From Candidatus Enterousia onthequi (GTDB taxonomy: Bacteria; Pseudomonadota; Alphaproteobacteria; Rs-D84), in assembly GCA_018064365.1 (NCBI GenBank), contig JAGHVJ010000020.1, forward strand, positions 1-34,150: a DNA stretch of 34,150 bases. Reading direction: 5' to 3'. The translations under genes were made by a program, and so were the position numbers. The notes beneath the pieces were generated by a model. That model saw only the letters and a program-made list of their open reading frames with translations. It was not told the DNA's origin and did not search any database. Positions 17,513 through 25,346 of the stretch are shown here, piece by piece (the first letter of the stretch is position 1; the number at the start of each line of letters is the position of its first letter).

Positions 17513-18184
17513 GAAATATTTACCTTATTAAATGGCGCAATAAAAATGCGTCAATCTTGTTATAATCCAACATCTGATGCGGTATGGTTGGCGGCATTTC
17601 CATACACAGAACCCAACACAATACTGGATGTTGGCATCGGTTCTGGTGGGGTATCTTTATGCCTGCAACACCATTTTCCAAATGCAAAAATCACAGGGAT
17701 TGACTCTTCACCAACAATGTTACAGGCATGTTCCGACAACTCACAATTGAACGGTTTTCATTTTGATTTGATAAACGCCGATATTCTCACTTGGTCCACC
17801 GATAAAACTTTCGATTTGGTCGTAACAAACCCTCCTTATTTTATTGGCACTCCATCTCCAAAACACCCAGACGCCCACCACAATACTGATTTAACTCGTT
17901 GGATTCGGCGAAGTCTTGCACGCGTAAAACCACGTGGATATATATGCGTTATCGTTGATGCCGCCCGAATGGCCGAAGTTATACACGTTATCACAAAAAG
18001 TTGCGGACACATTACAATACTTCCGTTATTCGGCACGAAACAGGTCGCAGAACGCGTTCTAATTCGTGGCAGGTTGGGAACCAACGGCGGTTCAACAATA
18101 CATTTAGGCTACCCAATGAATTACGACCCAATTTTACGTGACGGCTTGACTATTGAGAATATTTTGTCTAACATACGGGCATAA
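17498..18184 (+). CDS. TrmN6-like tRNA1(Val) adenine-37 N6-methyltransferase
   Basis: A class I SAM-dependent methyltransferase of 228 aa. Family features: an N-terminal LLNGAIKMRQ-like strand and SDAVWLAAF, the SAM motif LDVGIGSGG (about residues 43-51), the acidic motif GIDSS, and the NPPY motif (TNPPYF, about residue 110), which marks N6-adenine or similar amino methylation. The layout best matches TrmN6/YfiC, which methylates A37 of tRNA-Val(UAC) in E. coli; another N6-adenine substrate cannot be excluded. Translation apparently starts on a leaderless mRNA. Its TAA stop overlaps the next ATG by one base, coupling it to the LytM peptidase. Confidence 0.85.
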   Translation: MAEKQEIFTLLNGAIKMRQSCYNPTSDAVWLAAFPYTEPNTILDVGIGSGGVSLCLQHHFPNAKITGIDSSPTMLQACSDNSQLNGFHFDLINADILTWSTDKTFDLVVTNPPYFIGTPSPKHPDAHHNTDLTRWIRRSLARVKPRGYICVIVDAARMAEVIHVITKSCGHITILPLFGTKQVAERVLIRGRLGTNGGSTIHLGYPMNYDPILRDGLTIENILSNIRA

Positions 18185-19461
18185 TGTTAAACTTTATTGC
18201 CAGATATTTTTCATCCCTGTGGTCATTTATAACGTGGCCATTTCGCGCATGCTGGAAAATTATCGTACAATTTTTTCCGCCACGCGAATTTACCGTAATG
18301 GACACACCGCGCGGCAATGTATACAGCTTTAATCAAAGTAGTTTTTGGCGTTTTACTAAATTCGTTGGAAAAATAGGATTACTCTTATGGGCCTCTTGGT
18401 CAACATACGTTTTTGTATACCATCGTCCAATGCTGCAAAAAAGAACCATGCAATTACAGGCCGAACGCGAACGTCACGACCGACAATTAATTGATCTCCA
18501 AGTATATTTAACAAAATTTAACGATTTAACCCACGATTTAAATGTTATTGACGATAAAATTTTAAACTCAAAAAAATTATCTGACAAAGAACGCGAACAA
18601 CTAACAAATTCTCGCGTAAAAATTTGGGGCGAATTAGATTTTTTAAAAACCAGAATCTCTGAATTATTTGCCGACCGTGATTATTCCCCTGAATACACAA
18701 AAATGGCAGATTTATCTATTGCATACGACATGATTCGCGCAGAAAACGAAACCATAAAACAACATAACGCACAAATCGTCGAAACAATGACTACAATATC
18801 CGAGGCTGACACAGAAATCATCAACACAGTCACAACATTAACATCAGAACACACCCAAGAATTACGACAGAAATTACAAAAAATTAGTTCTACATTATTA
18901 TCACTCGGGCTTCAAGAACAAACACTTATACAAAACGCAAACAAATATTCCAATCCTATTGTGAATACAATATTTACACCGATAAAATTCGATGCAAAAA
19001 TTGACAACAAATATAAAAAACTTGCCAACGATTTAGAAATGTGGGCGGGCTTATCCAAATTGTCCCAGATTTTACCATTGGGGGCACCTGTCCAAAATCC
19101 TCGTGTAACATCTGGCTTTGGCACACGCAATGACCCTTTTACCAAAAGTCAAAAAAAACACAAAGGTATCGATTTTGCGGGTAAAGTCGGCACAGAATTA
19201 TCCGCCGTTGCCCCTGGACGTGTAATATCTGTTGGCGAACGCAGTGGATACGGCCTAACAGTCGAGGTTGATCACGGACTTGGTTTTTCAACATTATACG
19301 CCCATATGTCCAAGGTTTTGGTATCTCGGGGTGATTGGGTGCGACCTGGAACAATCGTAGGGCTGGCCGGTTCTTCGGGTCGTTCAACTGGCGCACATTT
19401 ACATTACGAAATAAAATACAAAGGAAATCAATTCGATCCAACAAAATTTGTAAAAGAATAA
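18184..19461 (+). CDS. Membrane-anchored LytM/M23 peptidase, bactofilin-linked (LmdC-like)
   Basis: A zinc endopeptidase predicted to cut peptidoglycan crosslinks in the periplasm. Residues 1-59 are cytoplasmic with aromatic, amphipathic character, residues 60-79 are the single membrane helix, residues 80-270 are coiled coil, and residues about 300-420 are the LytM domain with intact zinc ligands: His326 and Asp330 in HKGIDF, and HLH at 405-407. With all ligands present it should be active rather than an EnvC/NlpD-type activator. Followed 32 nt later by a bactofilin gene. The same pairing is known in Hyphomonas, where the bactofilin recruits the M23 enzyme LmdC via its cytoplasmic tail to shape the cell. 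425 aa. Confidence 0.92.
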   Translation: MLNFIARYFSSLWSFITWPFRACWKIIVQFFPPREFTVMDTPRGNVYSFNQSSFWRFTKFVGKIGLLLWASWSTYVFVYHRPMLQKRTMQLQAERERHDRQLIDLQVYLTKFNDLTHDLNVIDDKILNSKKLSDKEREQLTNSRVKIWGELDFLKTRISELFADRDYSPEYTKMADLSIAYDMIRAENETIKQHNAQIVETMTTISEADTEIINTVTTLTSEHTQELRQKLQKISSTLLSLGLQEQTLIQNANKYSNPIVNTIFTPIKFDAKIDNKYKKLANDLEMWAGLSKLSQILPLGAPVQNPRVTSGFGTRNDPFTKSQKKHKGIDFAGKVGTELSAVAPGRVISVGERSGYGLTVEVDHGLGFSTLYAHMSKVLVSRGDWVRPGTIVGLAGSSGRSTGAHLHYEIKYKGNQFDPTKFVKE

Positions 19462-19493
19462 AAAAACAAGAAAAAGGAAGAAAGGTAGATAAA

Positions 19494-19850
19494 ATGCTGG
19501 CATTTACAAACGCAGACGAAAAACAATCGCCAACCGTAATCGGGGCAGGGTGCAAAATCAACGGAGATATAAATTCTGATTTAACCGTTCAAATTCATGG
19601 TACTGTCCACGGCAATATAAACGCGTCTATCGTTGTAATTGGGCGGGGCGGGCATGTTATTGGTGACATAGCAACCGATACATTATTTTTGCATGGTGAA
19701 CTTTCTGGTTCGGCATTGACATACACCGCAAACATATTCAGCAACGCAAAAATGGACGGCACATTAACATACAAAACATTGAACATAACCGCAAACACAG
19801 AATTAGAATGCAAACTAAAAAAACGCAAAGGAAACAAAGATGACAAATAA
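19494..19850 (+). CDS. Bactofilin
   Basis: Polymer-forming cytoskeletal protein; forms a right-handed beta helix that assembles filaments at the inner face of the membrane. The 118-residue protein has the bactofilin core: TVIGAGCKINGDI, then short Gly-spaced strands (IHGTVHGNI, VVIGRGGHVIGDI, LFLHGELSG, KMDGTLTYKTL). The start at 19494 is chosen over an upstream in-frame ATG because GGAAGAAAGG precedes it and the core begins soon after. A short basic tail (KKRKGNK) ends it. It overlaps the rpiB start by 11 nt. With the upstream LytM peptidase it probably forms a local cell-wall shaping module. Confidence 0.93.
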   Translation: MLAFTNADEKQSPTVIGAGCKINGDINSDLTVQIHGTVHGNINASIVVIGRGGHVIGDIATDTLFLHGELSGSALTYTANIFSNAKMDGTLTYKTLNITANTELECKLKKRKGNKDDK

Positions 19851-20286
19851 AATATCTAAAATTTTTCTAGCCGCCGATCATCGTGGTGTTGCATTAAAAT
19901 TATATTTACTTGAAATGTTAAACGCAGCAGGATTTCAAACCGTTGATTTGGGAACATCTGACCCAACAACACCGGTTGACTTTCCGGATATCGCCGCAAA
20001 TTTAGCAGACGCCATGTTGGACGACGACGCATCACGCGGGATTTTAATCTGTGGCACCGGCGCAGGCATGGAAATTGCCGCAAACCGTTATCACCACATT
20101 CGTGCATCGCGTTGTGAACGTCCAGAACAAGCACGCGACGACCGTTTTCACGATGATATAAACGTTCTGGCATTAGCCGCCGACGATATTGATATCGAGG
20201 TTGCATACCTGTGCGCCCAGGCATTTTTGGAAAGCCCATTTGACGACATCGAACGCCGCCGCCGCAGATTAGAAAAAATATCATAA
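19840..20286 (+). CDS. rpiB: Ribose-5-phosphate isomerase B
   Basis: Interconverts ribose 5-phosphate and ribulose 5-phosphate in the pentose phosphate pathway. Conserved features in 148 aa: the ADH motif (AADHRG, residues 11-16), the VDFPDIA segment, the catalytic Cys71 in CGTGAGMEIAANR, and His104 in FHDDINVLAL. Length is normal. It overlaps the bactofilin gene by 11 nt and so is translationally coupled to the envelope genes. Its last 37 bases, ending exactly at the TAA, are the left copy of a perfect direct repeat whose right copy lies 1.28 kb downstream. Transketolase, encoded elsewhere in the window, uses the same pathway. Confidence 0.96.
   Translation: MTNKISKIFLAADHRGVALKLYLLEMLNAAGFQTVDLGTSDPTTPVDFPDIAANLADAMLDDDASRGILICGTGAGMEIAANRYHHIRASRCERPEQARDDRFHDDINVLALAADDIDIEVAYLCAQAFLESPFDDIERRRRRLEKIS
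20250..20286 (+). repeat. 37-bp direct repeat, left copy (3' end of rpiB)
   Basis: Perfect match to 21531-21567. The right edge coincides exactly with the rpiB stop codon. The repeat encodes the end of RpiB (ERRRRRLEKIS). Confidence 0.97.
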
Positions 20287-20299
20287 CAAAGCAATATCT

Positions 20300-21184
20300 A
20301 TGCCCCACACAATAACATTATCACGGCCATTATACAGTCCAATCCAAGAACTGAATTATGCCTGTTATAAAAACAAAAATTACGCATTTCGGTTTGACAA
20401 TGTGCGGGACAGATACGATTTTTTGCTTTCTAATAACCTTGTCAGCCACGAACAATGTACCCCGTCATTTATGATAAATTGTATTGATTTGCTTGATTCT
20501 AATTGGTGTATGAAACATTTTCTGGATATCCTTGGCGAAGATAAAATCCCAGAATATATTAAAATTTATGCCGCCCAAAAAGATTATGACGGAAACATAT
20601 TATCACTCTTAAAACAACATTCCGCCCGGATTATAACCACCGCACTGACAACCGCAGGACAAAATTTAGAACATTTGTCCAGTCCAACCACAAAACAAAT
20701 ATTATTGGGGCTGTCACACGAAACAGATACACCGTGGCTGATAACAAAAATAAAACACCCAACGCTTCAAATGCAAATTACCGCGGTGACACACAACATA
20801 CAGGCGTACAAATATATAACAAACCCTTGTGAATCTGTAAAATTGGCTGCGGCCCGGGCACACGGCATAGAAATATTACGTTATATAAAAACCCCCAGTG
20901 AACAGGTAATATTAACCGCAATCCGTCACACACTTGATACAACGGGCGAATTATTATTCTATTTTTTACCACACCCAAACCATAAAATTTATAATGCAAT
21001 TAAACAACAAATAAATTCAAGCAAACACTTAACCAGCACAAAACCACAGGAACAAATTTCCGCAAAAACATTACAATTTAATTCATGGCAAAATGCGGAT
21101 GTCCAACATTGTCAAAAATTGGCAAAGATAAAACAAGAAATGACAAATTTTTCTGCGGATATGTTTTTAATTCCAACGAGATAA
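20300..21184 (+). CDS. Repeat protein of unknown function (NPSE/VKLAA-type repeats)
   Basis: 294 residues, no signal peptide. The central part (about 125-220) shows degenerate repeats of about 20-25 residues: HPTLQMQITAVTHN, NPCESVKLAAARAH and TPSEQVILTAIRHT, each with a P-x-E/L-x-V-x-x-x-A pattern followed by an aromatic helix and I-x-x-I. Such alpha-helical solenoid repeats occur in scattered bacterial and phage proteins and suggest binding rather than catalysis. The ribosome site is weak. It lies inside the repeat-bounded insert 13 nt after rpiB, so it may be transcribed by read-through from the rpiB operon. Function unknown. Confidence 0.65.
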   Translation: MPHTITLSRPLYSPIQELNYACYKNKNYAFRFDNVRDRYDFLLSNNLVSHEQCTPSFMINCIDLLDSNWCMKHFLDILGEDKIPEYIKIYAAQKDYDGNILSLLKQHSARIITTALTTAGQNLEHLSSPTTKQILLGLSHETDTPWLITKIKHPTLQMQITAVTHNIQAYKYITNPCESVKLAAARAHGIEILRYIKTPSEQVILTAIRHTLDTTGELLFYFLPHPNHKIYNAIKQQINSSKHLTSTKPQEQISAKTLQFNSWQNADVQHCQKLAKIKQEMTNFSADMFLIPTR

Positions 21185-21187
21185 AAT

Positions 21188-21565
21188 TTATTTTGTATAT
21201 AAATCCTGCAATTTTTTAGATAACGCCGGATTATATTTGAAATACTTTGCCGTTCCCGGAATAACATAGTCCGTCAATTTTTCACCCGCCGCCAATTCGT
21301 CTTCGGAAATTGTATTTTCAAAATCGATATTGGGGCGCGTCAATTTATTTGGACCAATAAACTTTTTAACATACGGGCAAAAACCCGGCACCACATAATC
21401 ATGGTGCAAGGTATCAAAATTCACCGGACTGCCGTTGCTTTTGAAACAACTGTCGCAATCTTCATCCACACGCGCCGAAAAATCAGTATTATAGCAATCG
21501 CACAAACGATTTTTACCCAAATGACAACAACGAACGCCGCCGCCGCAGATTAGAAAAAATATCAT
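21188..21565 (-). pseudogene. 5'-truncated CxxCxxCC-family paralogue
   Basis: The 125-codon frame aligns with the C-terminal two thirds of the intact paralogue just upstream on the same strand: shared CDCY/CSCY, HDYVVPGFCPYVKKF versus NDYVVPSFCPYVQKF, ENTISEDEL, VIPG and KYFKYNP. The N-terminal CKQCGICC metal-binding part is absent. Its place is taken by the reverse complement of the rpiB 3' end, which by chance supplies an ATG and the residues before VRC. No ribosome site precedes that ATG, and a terminator hairpin sits between it and the intact paralogue. It is therefore probably a remnant. Confidence 0.7.
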
Positions 21566-21567
21566 AA
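21531..21567 (+). repeat. 37-bp direct repeat, right copy
   Basis: Identical to the last 37 bases of rpiB (20250-20286). The match starts at the junction with the truncated CxxCxxCC-family frame. Confidence 0.97.
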
Positions 21568-21574
21568 AACAATA

Positions 21575-21599
21575 AAAAACATCCCATTGGGATGTTTTT
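21575..21599. terminator. Bidirectional terminator
   Basis: Stem AAAAACATCCCA / TGGGATGTTTTT with almost no loop and T-runs on both strands. It ends the intact CxxCxxCC gene (minus) and, before the insertion, probably ended rpiB (plus). Confidence 0.8.
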
Positions 21600-21601
21600 A
21601 T

Positions 21602-22075
21602 TTAAGTTTCTTTTTCATGCAATAGTTTATTTACAATCGGATTATACAAAAAATATTTATTAGACCCAGGAATAATATGTTGTTCCAAATTTTCGCCAGG
21701 CTTTAATTCTGCCTCTGAAACAGTGTTATCCCAATCCATACCCAAAGCAGTCTTTGGCATTCGACCAACATTTGTCTTGCGAAATTTCTGAACATAAGGA
21801 CAAAAAGACGGAACCACATAATCGTTCTGTAAAGTTTCATAATTCAAACAACTTCCATTATAATCTTTACAAGTCTTACAACCATTATCACGTTTATCGA
21901 CATCGGCCGAATAACAAGAACACTTGCGTGTTTTTTTATCCAAAGCAGGGCATCGAACATCAGTCAACCAAACATTACCATTTTTATCACAATATTTTAC
22001 CAAACAACATATACCACATTGTTTGCAAATATTTTCCCACTTGATACTACCCGGAATAATTTCTTTTTTTGCCAT
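21602..22075 (-). CDS. YkgJ-type CxxCxxCC metal-binding protein
   Basis: 157 residues. The N-terminal CKQCGICC (Cys17, 20, 23, 24) is the signature of the CxxCxxCC/YkgJ family, believed to bind zinc or iron. Further Cys follow (RCPALD, CSCYS, CKTCKDYNGSC, FCPYV). The C-terminal half contains the IIPGSNKYFLYNP segment. The start at 22075 is preferred over a longer frame from 22147 because AGAGGTGA lies 6-8 nt upstream and it opens with MAKKEI. Biochemical function of the family is poorly defined. A truncated paralogue lies directly downstream on the same strand, indicating a former tandem or inserted second copy. Confidence 0.88.
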   Translation of the reverse strand: MAKKEIIPGSIKWENICKQCGICCLVKYCDKNGNVWLTDVRCPALDKKTRKCSCYSADVDKRDNGCKTCKDYNGSCLNYETLQNDYVVPSFCPYVQKFRKTNVGRMPKTALGMDWDNTVSEAELKPGENLEQHIIPGSNKYFLYNPIVNKLLHEKET

Positions 22076-22255
22076 ACTTTCACCTCTTTGACTCAAACTT
22101 ACGATAACACAAAAATAAAAATCGTCAAGAATAAAAATAAGATTCAAGTGTAAAGGATGTATCTTTTTGAACGATAAAACTTGATTTCTAATGAATTATA
22201 TCATAAAATCCCCTCAAAAATTCATAAAAATATAAAAAAACGACAAAGGCAAACA

Positions 22256-22456
22256 ATGCTACGCATTATGCAAGATTATAAAGATTATAGACAACAAAAA
22301 AAGAACATGAAATTGCTCAAAAATAAAGCGATTATCAAATTTCAAAATATGGTAAAACCAATCAGTTTTTCAGAATTAGATGATTATACACGTCAACTAA
22401 CTCTATTAATCAAGGGAGGAGAGGCTGTTTATGATGGAAAAATGTTCAAGCACTAA
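22256..22456 (+). CDS. Small basic protein (unknown)
   Basis: 66 residues from the ATG at 22256, preferred because AAAGG lies 6 nt upstream; an alternative TTG start at 22181 would give 91 residues but has no ribosome site. The sequence is helical and basic (RQQKKNMKLLKNKAIIKF) with SFSELDDYTRQLTLL near the end. No family recognised, no signal peptide. It precedes the frame-disrupted secreted-protein locus, with which its last codons overlap. Confidence 0.45.
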   Translation: MLRIMQDYKDYRQQKKNMKLLKNKAIIKFQNMVKPISFSELDDYTRQLTLLIKGGEAVYDGKMFKH

Positions 22457-22803
22457 AAAAATATATGGATGAAAAGGCACCTTTGGTTCATTTGCCTTCT
22501 TGTTTTTGCACTGTGTTTGCATCATCCTATTTAATACCTACCTGCATCATTCAAAGTATAATTTATTCAGATTGTGAAAGGAAAGAACATTCCGAACTTA
22601 AAGAAGACAATGTGTTTAGATGCACTCATAACCGAGAGGATGGTATAATATTTGAAAATAATTGTGTCAATTGTTCAACAGACATATTCAGAAACTTGGT
22701 AGAATATAATGCTTTAAAAGGTGAATTACAGAATGCACAACAATCACTAAAAGATACAAAACAAAAATTATTAAATCATTTTAAATTCAGAAGACACAAA
22801 TAA
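22431..22803 (+). pseudogene. Probably frame-disrupted gene for a secreted or anchored protein
   Basis: An ATG at 22431 has a good ribosome site (AGGGAGGAG) but its frame stops after 13 codons. A second frame from 22469 encodes MKRHLWFICLLVFALCL, an ideal signal peptide or membrane anchor, but stops near 22536. A third frame, open to 22803, carries the Cys-containing C-terminal part (DCERKEH, CVNCS) and a coiled coil (ALKGELQNAQQSL). One extra base in the A7 tract at about 22455-22461 would join the first two frames, and a second shift the third. I read this as a degraded or switchable single gene; a separate 112-residue protein starting at 22465 is the alternative, but has no ribosome site. 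Confidence 0.4.
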
Positions 22804-22817
22804 AACAACAGATGATT

Positions 22818-22847
22818 AAATACCACCCTAAACGGGCGGTATTTTTT
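22818..22847 (+). terminator. Intrinsic terminator
   Basis: AAATACCACCC / GGGCGGTATTT stem with one A-C mismatch, 5-nt loop and a T-run. It supports past transcription of the preceding disrupted locus. Confidence 0.65.
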
Positions 22848-22892
22848 ATATTTTTCAAAAAGATACATTCTTTACACTTGGAGCCAAAAACA

Positions 22893-22946: not shown

Positions 22947-25346
22947 TTACTTTTTCACAACAAAGTTCACTAACTTTTTTGGGACAACGATTGTTTTAAT
23001 TATCGTTGCGCCATCCAATTGTTTGGTTGCGTTTTGTTTTGCCAGTTCCACTAAATCATATTCGGCAATATCTACCGGGACAACAAAGTCACGCACGCGT
23101 TTGCCATTGACCGACACAACAATCGTCATATCATTATCTACCAATTTAGACGCGTCCGCAACCGGCCACGGTTCAAACACCAACATATCGGCATGTCCCA
23201 TGCGTTCCCACAGTTCTTCGGTTAAATGCGGTGCAAACGGATTCAACAATTGGATTAAAACAGAGTAGGCCGCCCGAGGCATTTTACCACCCGGAAAAGC
23301 ATTTATAAATTCCATCATCCCCGAAATCGCGGTATTAAATTTCATATTGTCCAACCGTTCTGTCACATCGGCAATCAAACGATTGACCAATTTATCCTGG
23401 GATTCTGTCAAACTGTCGTCTGTTAAATTATCTGCAAACGCCTCGACACGGTTCAAAAATCTTTGCACGCCGGCCAATGCCCCATCGGTCCAAACAACAT
23501 TATTTTCCCACGGTCCCAAAGATAAAACCGCAACACGCCCAGCATCCGCACCAACGCGTTCTAACAAATCAACGACCATAAAACCGTTTCCGCGCGATTT
23601 AGACATTTTGTATCCGTCACTCCCCATCAACAACCCCTGGGCCGTGCGTTTAGCATATGGTTCTGGCGTATTCACCAACCCCAAATCATACAAAGCATGA
23701 TGCCAAAAACGAGAATATATCAAATGGCGAGTATTATGTTCATGCCCACCATTATAATGTGTCACAGGCATCCAATTTTGCATTTTTTGTTTTGAACAAA
23801 ATTCTTTATCATTCTTTGGGTCCAAATAACGCAAATAATACCACGAAGACCCAGCCCAACCCGGCATAGTATCTGTTTCGCGTGTTGCCACACCACCACA
23901 TTTTGGACACGTCGTATTCACCCAATCTGTCGCACGCGCAAGCGGACTTTCGCCATCGTCAGTCGGACGATAATCTGTCATATATGGCTGCATAACCGGT
24001 AATTGATTTTCTGGCACAGGCACCCAACCACATTTATCACAATGAACAAGAGGTATTGGTTCACCCCAATACATTTGACGCGAAAACCCCCAATCTTTCA
24101 ATTTGTATTTTGTTGTGCCGCGCGCAAACCCGTGTTCTGTGCCGTATTTAATCGCCGCTGCAATCGCGTCCGCCTTGCCCATACCGTCCAAGAACGATGA
24201 ATTTATATGCGGACCGTCACCTTCCCACACTTTATCAGGTTCACCACCCGCCAACACAGGAATAATATCCAGACCAAATTTTTTAGCAAAATCCCAATCG
24301 CGTGAATCATGCGCCGGCACAGCCATAATTGTCCCATATGCATAATCAACCAAAACATAATCAGATGTAAAGATTGGAATTTCACGGCCATTAAACGGAT
24401 TTATTGCGACAATACCATCCAGTTTTATACCAGTTTTTTCCTTGGTTGCGTCCGTCCGTTCGATTTCTGTTTTTGCCGCTGACGCGCGAATATAATCTTT
24501 GACCGCAGCCGCATTTATAATACGACCATCATCCAACCATTTACGCAATAATTTATGTTCCGGTGCAATCACACAAAATGTCACACCAAATATAGTATCA
24601 ACACGAGTCGTGTAAACCGTCATAACATCGTCGCCAACACGAAAATCAACATCTGTCCCACGAGATTTTCCAATCAAATTTATTTCGTCTTTTTTAATAC
24701 GTTCATCAAAATCGACATCGTTCAACCCATCCAGCAATTTATCTGCGTATTTTGACAGAGCCAAATTCCACTGCAATTTTTCTTTTTTTTCAATCAAGCC
24801 ATGACAACGCGGACATTTGTTATCTTCTAACTCTTCATTTGTAAATGTTGTTCTGCACTCTGGACACCAATTCATCGGCAGGGCAGATTTATACGCCAAC
24901 CCAGCATTAAAGAATTGAATAAACATCCATTGAGTCCATTTGACATATTCCGGATCTGATGTTGCAACCCGCGTATCTGGGGACACAGACCAACCAACAC
25001 TATCAATTACATCCGAATAAGATTTCACCAAATCACGCGCCACATCTGCCGGATGACGACCAATTTTCGTAGCATAATGTTCTCCCGCAATTCCCATCGC
25101 ATCAAACCCCATCGGGAACAACACATCATAGCCCAAATGACGACGATATCGCGCCAAAACATCCATCCCAGAATAATTCAACATATGCCCCGCGTGCATC
25201 CCAGCACCAGACAAAAAAGGAAACTCTACCAAATTATAATAACGTGGTTTTGAACCATCGTCCAACGGCACAAAAGCACGCGCATCGCGCCAACGGCGTT
25301 GCCATTTTGCCTCGCGTTCTTGAATTTTCTTGGTATTGTCTGTCAT
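22947..25346 (-). CDS. leuS: Leucyl-tRNA synthetase
   Basis: Charges tRNA-Leu in the cytoplasm; two of its substrates are encoded in this window. Class Ia motifs: HAGH at residues 51-54 (HIGH signature), the CP1 editing domain (about 220-370, TTRVDTIFG and VPAHDSRDWDF), SSWYYLRYLD, and YKMSKSRGN near residue 580. At 799 aa it is about 60 shorter than the E. coli type. It has a full zinc ribbon after the HIGH region (CPEC and CPRC, Cys161, 164, 178, 181), where E. coli has none, and replaces the usual PSG-x-LHVGH by LSGAGMHAGH. This suggests an enzyme type different from typical proteobacterial LeuRS. The ATG at 25346 follows AAGGA. Confidence 0.96.
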   Translation of the reverse strand: MTDNTKKIQEREAKWQRRWRDARAFVPLDDGSKPRYYNLVEFPFLSGAGMHAGHMLNYSGMDVLARYRRHLGYDVLFPMGFDAMGIAGEHYATKIGRHPADVARDLVKSYSDVIDSVGWSVSPDTRVATSDPEYVKWTQWMFIQFFNAGLAYKSALPMNWCPECRTTFTNEELEDNKCPRCHGLIEKKEKLQWNLALSKYADKLLDGLNDVDFDERIKKDEINLIGKSRGTDVDFRVGDDVMTVYTTRVDTIFGVTFCVIAPEHKLLRKWLDDGRIINAAAVKDYIRASAAKTEIERTDATKEKTGIKLDGIVAINPFNGREIPIFTSDYVLVDYAYGTIMAVPAHDSRDWDFAKKFGLDIIPVLAGGEPDKVWEGDGPHINSSFLDGMGKADAIAAAIKYGTEHGFARGTTKYKLKDWGFSRQMYWGEPIPLVHCDKCGWVPVPENQLPVMQPYMTDYRPTDDGESPLARATDWVNTTCPKCGGVATRETDTMPGWAGSSWYYLRYLDPKNDKEFCSKQKMQNWMPVTHYNGGHEHNTRHLIYSRFWHHALYDLGLVNTPEPYAKRTAQGLLMGSDGYKMSKSRGNGFMVVDLLERVGADAGRVAVLSLGPWENNVVWTDGALAGVQRFLNRVEAFADNLTDDSLTESQDKLVNRLIADVTERLDNMKFNTAISGMMEFINAFPGGKMPRAAYSVLIQLLNPFAPHLTEELWERMGHADMLVFEPWPVADASKLVDNDMTIVVSVNGKRVRDFVVPVDIAEYDLVELAKQNATKQLDGATIIKTIVVPKKLVNFVVKK

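Follow-up and report, generated by a model that had tools for sequence, protein, structure and literature searches.

Integrase elements insert at the 3' ends of genes and are bounded at their far side by an exact copy of the gene end. Behind rpiB in a contig of Candidatus Enterousia onthequi, the end of the gene recurs in just this manner, which raises the question of whether the DNA between the two ends is a mobile element or reached its place by another route. The window analysed here is the whole 34,150-nucleotide contig; its source genome (G000) comprises 884,736 bases in 37 contigs and is evidently a metagenome assembly, and the two-copy junction is known from this one MAG contig in the one genome of the species. 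We compared the locus with a sample of 156 genomes of the genus, in 148 of which rpiB was found, and examined 111 rpiB loci, the window included, 26 of which have less than 1.5 kb behind rpiB.

The 3' end of rpiB is repeated exactly behind a two-gene block

The last 37 bases of rpiB, with the stop codon at the end, recur at all 37 positions, and an imperfect extension takes the match to 48 of 52 bases (20235–20286 against 21516–21567) at a spacing of 1,281. A sequence-only reading of the window had reported this recurrence, with one repeat-protein ORF and one truncated gene between the copies, and our analysis bears it out on both counts: the space is filled by orf294 and, on the opposite strand, by a 5'-truncated remnant of gene A (Table 1). 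On the 3' side of copy 2 follow a hairpin, an intact A-type gene (A'), an inverted-repeat element, and a gene that we take to be leuS, going by its alignment to relatives.

Table 1. Coordinates of the features between rpiB and leuS in the window
Feature	Positions	Strand	Basis or remark
rpiB, ribose-5-phosphate isomerase B	19840–20286	+	Pfam LacAB_rpiB PF02502, E 2.5e-38; copy 1 of the 37-bp end at 20250–20286
Putative exchanged block: rpiB 3' part, orf294 and gene A remnant	20176–21530	+	Identity, dS; left edge not sharp
orf294, all-helical repeat protein, 294 aa	20300–21184	+	14 nt behind rpiB
Gene A remnant, YcgN-like cysteine-cluster protein	21188–21535	-	First ~40 codons (CxxCxxCC end) missing
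Junction patch, gene A against rpiB 3' end	21516–21537		18/22, CGAACGC exact
Copy 2 of rpiB 3' end, 37 bp including stop	21531–21567	+	Exact repeat
Bidirectional terminator-like hairpin behind copy 2	21575–21599		Sequence
A', intact YcgN-like gene from another lineage	21602–22075	-	NCBIfam YcgN models, tree, collinearity with G019
Inverted-repeat element on the A' side	22141–22885		Arms 22145–22179 and 22846–22880; ORFs 22181–22456 and 22465–22803
leuS (presumed), right flank of the variable interval	22947–25346	-	Aligned to relatives; 94% aa to G015

The recurrence of these 37 bp is genuine and exceeds what chance would give. With two loci (G011, G140) set aside for their short flanks, 109 were compared, and the window is the sole locus at which the rpiB end recurs. 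When the last 150 nt of rpiB were matched to the downstream DNA at the other 108 loci (among which G120 has a misplaced rpiB stop and an invalid row), the longest exact match was at most 12 nt, and ungapped comparison with the last 37 nt gave 17–23 matching bases of 37 at best. In G120 itself, rpiB seems to be broken or frameshifted, with two consecutive partial matches (C15:17708–18080) and orf294 directly behind. A transposon with target duplication was discarded as the source of the repeat: the 37-bp duplication ends exactly at the stop codon, and the ends of the block bear no inverted repeats.

The window joins two layouts that occur separately in relatives

The rpiB–leuS interval is highly variable across the genus: in many genomes leuS lies 30–60 nt behind rpiB, and in others at least one gene stands between them. 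The order rpiB–orf294–A–leuS, with A intact, is found in G015 and G126, and more distant versions of it in G013 and G129. An A-type gene without orf294 lies between rpiB and leuS in G028, G128, G019, G118, G162, G091, G101, G156, G001, G065 and G158, and G066 has an A-type gene behind rpiB on a fetched stretch that stops before leuS. The larger intervals also hold further recurring ORF groups, which by blastp have 13, 7 and 6 members among 60 ORFs genus-wide.

The two layouts differ in what follows the rpiB stop codon. Of the 97 loci without orf294, 77 have a terminator-like hairpin no more than 75 nt from the stop, versus 1 of the 12 with orf294. Copy 1 in the window has the orf294 type of context, with orf294 close behind and no hairpin, and copy 2 has the hairpin type. 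The G015 locus aligns unbroken to window positions 18000–21537 and then again only from 22942, and the G019 locus (rpiB tail, spacer and A-type gene) aligns to 21544–22082. The sequence-only reading had predicted an empty site in relatives, and such a site exists, with rpiB followed by the terminator and then by leuS or an A gene, without orf294; it had also allowed, as evidence against itself, for two copies in all relatives, an arrangement that we looked for and that did not occur, the window alone having two.

The remnant of A and the intact A' trace to different parts of the family. Over 115 aa, the remnant shares 95.7% amino acid identity with the intact A protein of G015, and A and A' are about 50% identical to each other. 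When 18 A-family proteins were placed in a tree, the remnant fell with G126 and G015 in an A clade with support 100/100, while A' lay outside this clade, at an uncertain position. G000 is the only one of the 156 genomes with two strong A-family matches. Given the low identity and the different parts of the tree, we dismissed the idea that A and A' are divergent tandem paralogues made by simple duplication. Both proteins appear to be YcgN-like by NCBIfam models, with scores of 45 and 47 bits for the pair against a curated cut-off of 150 (best E 1.7e-12, for A'), and at these scores below the family cut-off they are not filed as members.

Both layouts thus occur separately in relatives, and the window is best explained as a fusion of the two, in which rpiB–orf294–A, with the 5' end of A lost, is followed by the last 37 bp of rpiB, the terminator and A'. 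The first layout, of the G015/G126 type, would have supplied everything up to 21530, and the second, rpiB–terminator–A'–...–leuS of the G019 type, everything from the second rpiB end on. We regard this fusion, taken jointly with the mechanism proposed below, as a likely account of the locus. The fusion also appears to have made a 125-aa open frame on the minus strand (21188–21565), which begins in the antisense rpiB end and continues in frame into gene A.

The orf294–A block has recently been exchanged between species

Compared with G126 and G015, the window has 96.5–96.6% nucleotide identity in orf294 and 95.3–96.8% in the A part, against 84.6–86.4% in rpiB, 83.5–88.3% in leuS and 83.0% in lytM (G015 only). 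Synonymous divergence follows the same division: dS is 0.05–0.07 for orf294 and 0.15–0.16 for A, against 0.78–0.80 for leuS, 0.99–1.51 for the 5' part of rpiB and 1.04 for lytM (G015 only). G126 and G015 likewise share the block at higher identity than their flanks. The low dS of orf294 and A next to the high dS of lytM, rpiB and leuS indicates that the orf294–A block was exchanged between species recently, as judged from these sequence comparisons. The sequence-only reading spoke of an insert, and was right in that the DNA between the repeats has, by identity and dS, a recent foreign history; that this DNA is a unit bounded by 37-bp sites is not supported.

Identity to G015 and G126 jumps about 112 nt before the rpiB stop. 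Over the 444 nt before the stop codon, the window and G015 differ at 65 positions in the first 332 and at 4 in the last 112. Few differences are likewise seen in the last 110 nt of rpiB in G066 and G013, so the left edge of the block can be placed only within the last ~110 nt of the gene. We had also entertained the converse history, with 20287–21530 resident from the start and the A' side arriving later; the low orf294–A dS to two other species weakens this idea.

The window's two rpiB ends show no difference, but identical 37-bp ends occur in 0 of 276 species pairs whose rpiB otherwise diverges by 14–20% (108 of the 111 loci, all except G120, G011 and G129, in pairs that overlap and are not independent). 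Set against these pairs, the match suggests that the donor end is not simply that of a foreign species. On these comparisons, the identical ends favour a donor and recipient that were conspecific in rpiB, a crossover inside the end, or later homogenisation.

The junction lies at the best short match available

Gene A of G126 and G015 runs on past the break point, and there 18 of 22 bases match the rpiB end, 7 of them as an exact run (CGAACGC). When the final 112 nt of rpiB in the window are compared with the 1,450 nt behind rpiB in G126 or in G015, there are 130,039 ungapped pairs of 22-mers, and the junction pair ranks first in both genomes. The best scores in 20 shuffled blocks were 14–16 for G126 and 14–17 for G015, against the 18 of 22 observed. 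Since the junction pair ranks first, the joint appears to have formed at the best short match available. Microhomology had been among the earlier suggestions, and a short match did make the right end; the accompanying remark on GTTCG was true and understated the match, and the GTTCG in the paralogue A' is not the relevant one.

The same junction bears on an assembly error, in which the contig would falsely join two strains of one population. The source is a 37-contig MAG, and the two layouts could be those of two coexisting strains. A k-mer misjoin, however, would pass through the common rpiB end and so lead from rpiB to orf294 or from rpiB to the terminator, not from A into an rpiB end, and the closest known A genes have only 7 exact bases in common with rpiB, so that a chimeric read would presumably be needed. 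We therefore think an assembly error quite improbable.

The repeat does not bound a moving unit

Members of the orf294 family occur in 15 of the 156 genomes (E ≤ 0.001) and adjoin rpiB by position in 13 of these 15. The AlphaFold2 model of orf294 (mean pLDDT 80.7) is armadillo-like and all-helical. It had no match in the PDB at E ≤ 0.001 by Foldseek, and searches of the family against Pfam, NCBIfam and PADLOC gave no family, one weak chance Pfam match to 1 of 13 members aside. The orf294 of G013 (L057:699–1496) is ~91% identical to that of the window over the first 284 nt and then diverges, with 60% amino acid identity overall; since this copy is similar at the start and divergent after, the family itself appears to be mosaic.

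In 11 other genomes with a readable rpiB end (G015, G126, G013, G129, G087, G009, G096, G093, G071, G097 and G031), orf294 family genes lie at the same site behind rpiB, and in none of the 11 does the rpiB end occur a second time. Because orf294 stands at these loci without a second end, the repeat is not part of a moving unit. This bears directly on site-specific integration, by which a recombinase acting in trans would have put a small circle, made of the 37-bp site, orf294 and the A remnant, at the rpiB end. The exact regeneration of the gene's 3' end and the 37-bp direct repeat are what such an event would leave. Against it stand, besides the 11 loci, the intact A of G015 and G126, which extends beyond the junction, the position of the junction inside a gene at a chance match, and the interval's ORFs, none of which matches a recombinase. 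The earlier suggestion of a tiny non-autonomous element with 37-bp sites is accordingly not supported, and we rate site-specific integration as very improbable. In our reading the 37-bp repeat is probably a scar that recombination left, rather than the trace of a new mobile element.

Inverted-repeat cassettes lie beside the junction

The element on the A' side has 35-nt arms that are 89% identical and a target duplication matching at 7 of 8 positions. Neither of its two ORFs matches a transposase, and the parent insertion sequence was not found; the matches of the two ORFs lie in one longer frame of 187–192 aa in G104 and G072. Ends of the form GGCT-CAAGTGTAAANNATGTATCTTTTTGA also bound other elements of 0.3–1.3 kb with different cargo and no transposase seen. 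Ankyrin-repeat-like proteins form part of the cargo in G063, G064 and G127, the G127 protein having been searched against Pfam, and G127 also carries a 107-aa ORF as cargo. Target duplications are exact over 8 bp in G064, G014 and G127 C4 and match at 7 of 8 in G127 C8, and the G063 element lies at a contig end. The end pattern occurs in 8 of the 156 genomes of the genus; among genome_contigs it marks 5 stretches, and viral_contigs gave none. These inverted-repeat elements look like mobile insertion cassettes.

A proposed mechanism for the fusion

As our best explanation, and with the fusion itself a likely one, we propose that DNA of the rpiB–orf294–A layout joined the terminator–A' layout by homology-facilitated illegitimate recombination (HFIR), or as a circularised fragment with one crossover. 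DNA with the first layout would have entered a cell carrying the second and recombined by homology in the 3' portion of rpiB. Because the sequences of A and A' have too little in common, the far end would have joined illegitimately, annealing at the best short match, which lay in the resident rpiB end. After such an event, the final 37 bases of the resident rpiB, with the resident terminator and A', would stand behind the new block, and A would be without its 5' end. By the related alternative route, a circularised fragment would integrate by one crossover. HFIR places one junction in a homologous region, and identity here rises in the 3' part of rpiB, at a position that is blurred; it places the other where there is little or no homology and few shared bases, and the right junction has the 7 exact bases within the match of 18 in 22. 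As an uptake route, canonical competence was set aside: ComEC was found in 140 of the 156 genomes by a search also positive in an E. coli control, so that its presence does not prove competence, and it was not found in G000, the window's genome.

The same final sequence would also result from two steps, in which a larger tandem duplication or merodiploid, with the first layout beside a full second one and a whole second rpiB, was followed by a deletion from A to rpiB at the 22-nt match. Deletions at short matches are common. This history, however, takes an extra step and requires that a second rpiB was lost except for its 37-bp end, and an rpiB protein search gives one match in G000; we hold it to be improbable.

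Beyond this locus, the rpiB–leuS interval might be a recombinase-free cassette slot, where modules would cross species anchored on the rpiB 3' end and stack before an older module where the far side is without homology, with an rpiB end left as a scar and a chance 22-nt match in the cargo steering the joint. We consider this general scheme rather doubtful.

Comparison with known systems

The kind of event proposed for the window is already known, and the window is a clean example of it. One parallel is the stepwise displacement of effector-immunity modules at Rhs loci and in type VI clusters of Vibrio, for which the authors propose HFIR (PMC5361080). The two cases are alike in that a new module stands behind a conserved anchor and the old downstream gene is kept behind the new module (PMC5361080); they differ in that the window retains a duplicated anchor end and that neither orf294 nor A or A' was found to have a toxin or immunity function.

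HFIR has been described for S. pneumoniae, A. baylyi, P. stutzeri and E. coli, with one end homologous and the other illegitimate; the experiments in E. coli also gave many recombinants that had a partial duplication instead, made through a circularised molecule and one crossover (PMC3240628). The window resembles the events described there in that one end would have been joined by homology and the other illegitimately (PMC3240628). It differs in being seen as a natural footprint in a single genome, and in the match at its illegitimate end, which is long though imperfect. With close relatives of both parents at hand, this natural junction allows the length and quality of the illegitimate match to be read directly, and it does so for an uncultured lineage of gut bacteria whose genome is small.

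With integrase elements, the locus has in common the exact copy of the gene end at the far side; it differs from them in an interval whose ORFs include no recombinase match, relatives without a repeat-bounded unit, and a break inside a gene. Exact copies of a gene's 3' end are usually read as a sign of an integrase element, and ordinary exchange between versions of a gene slot can also produce them.
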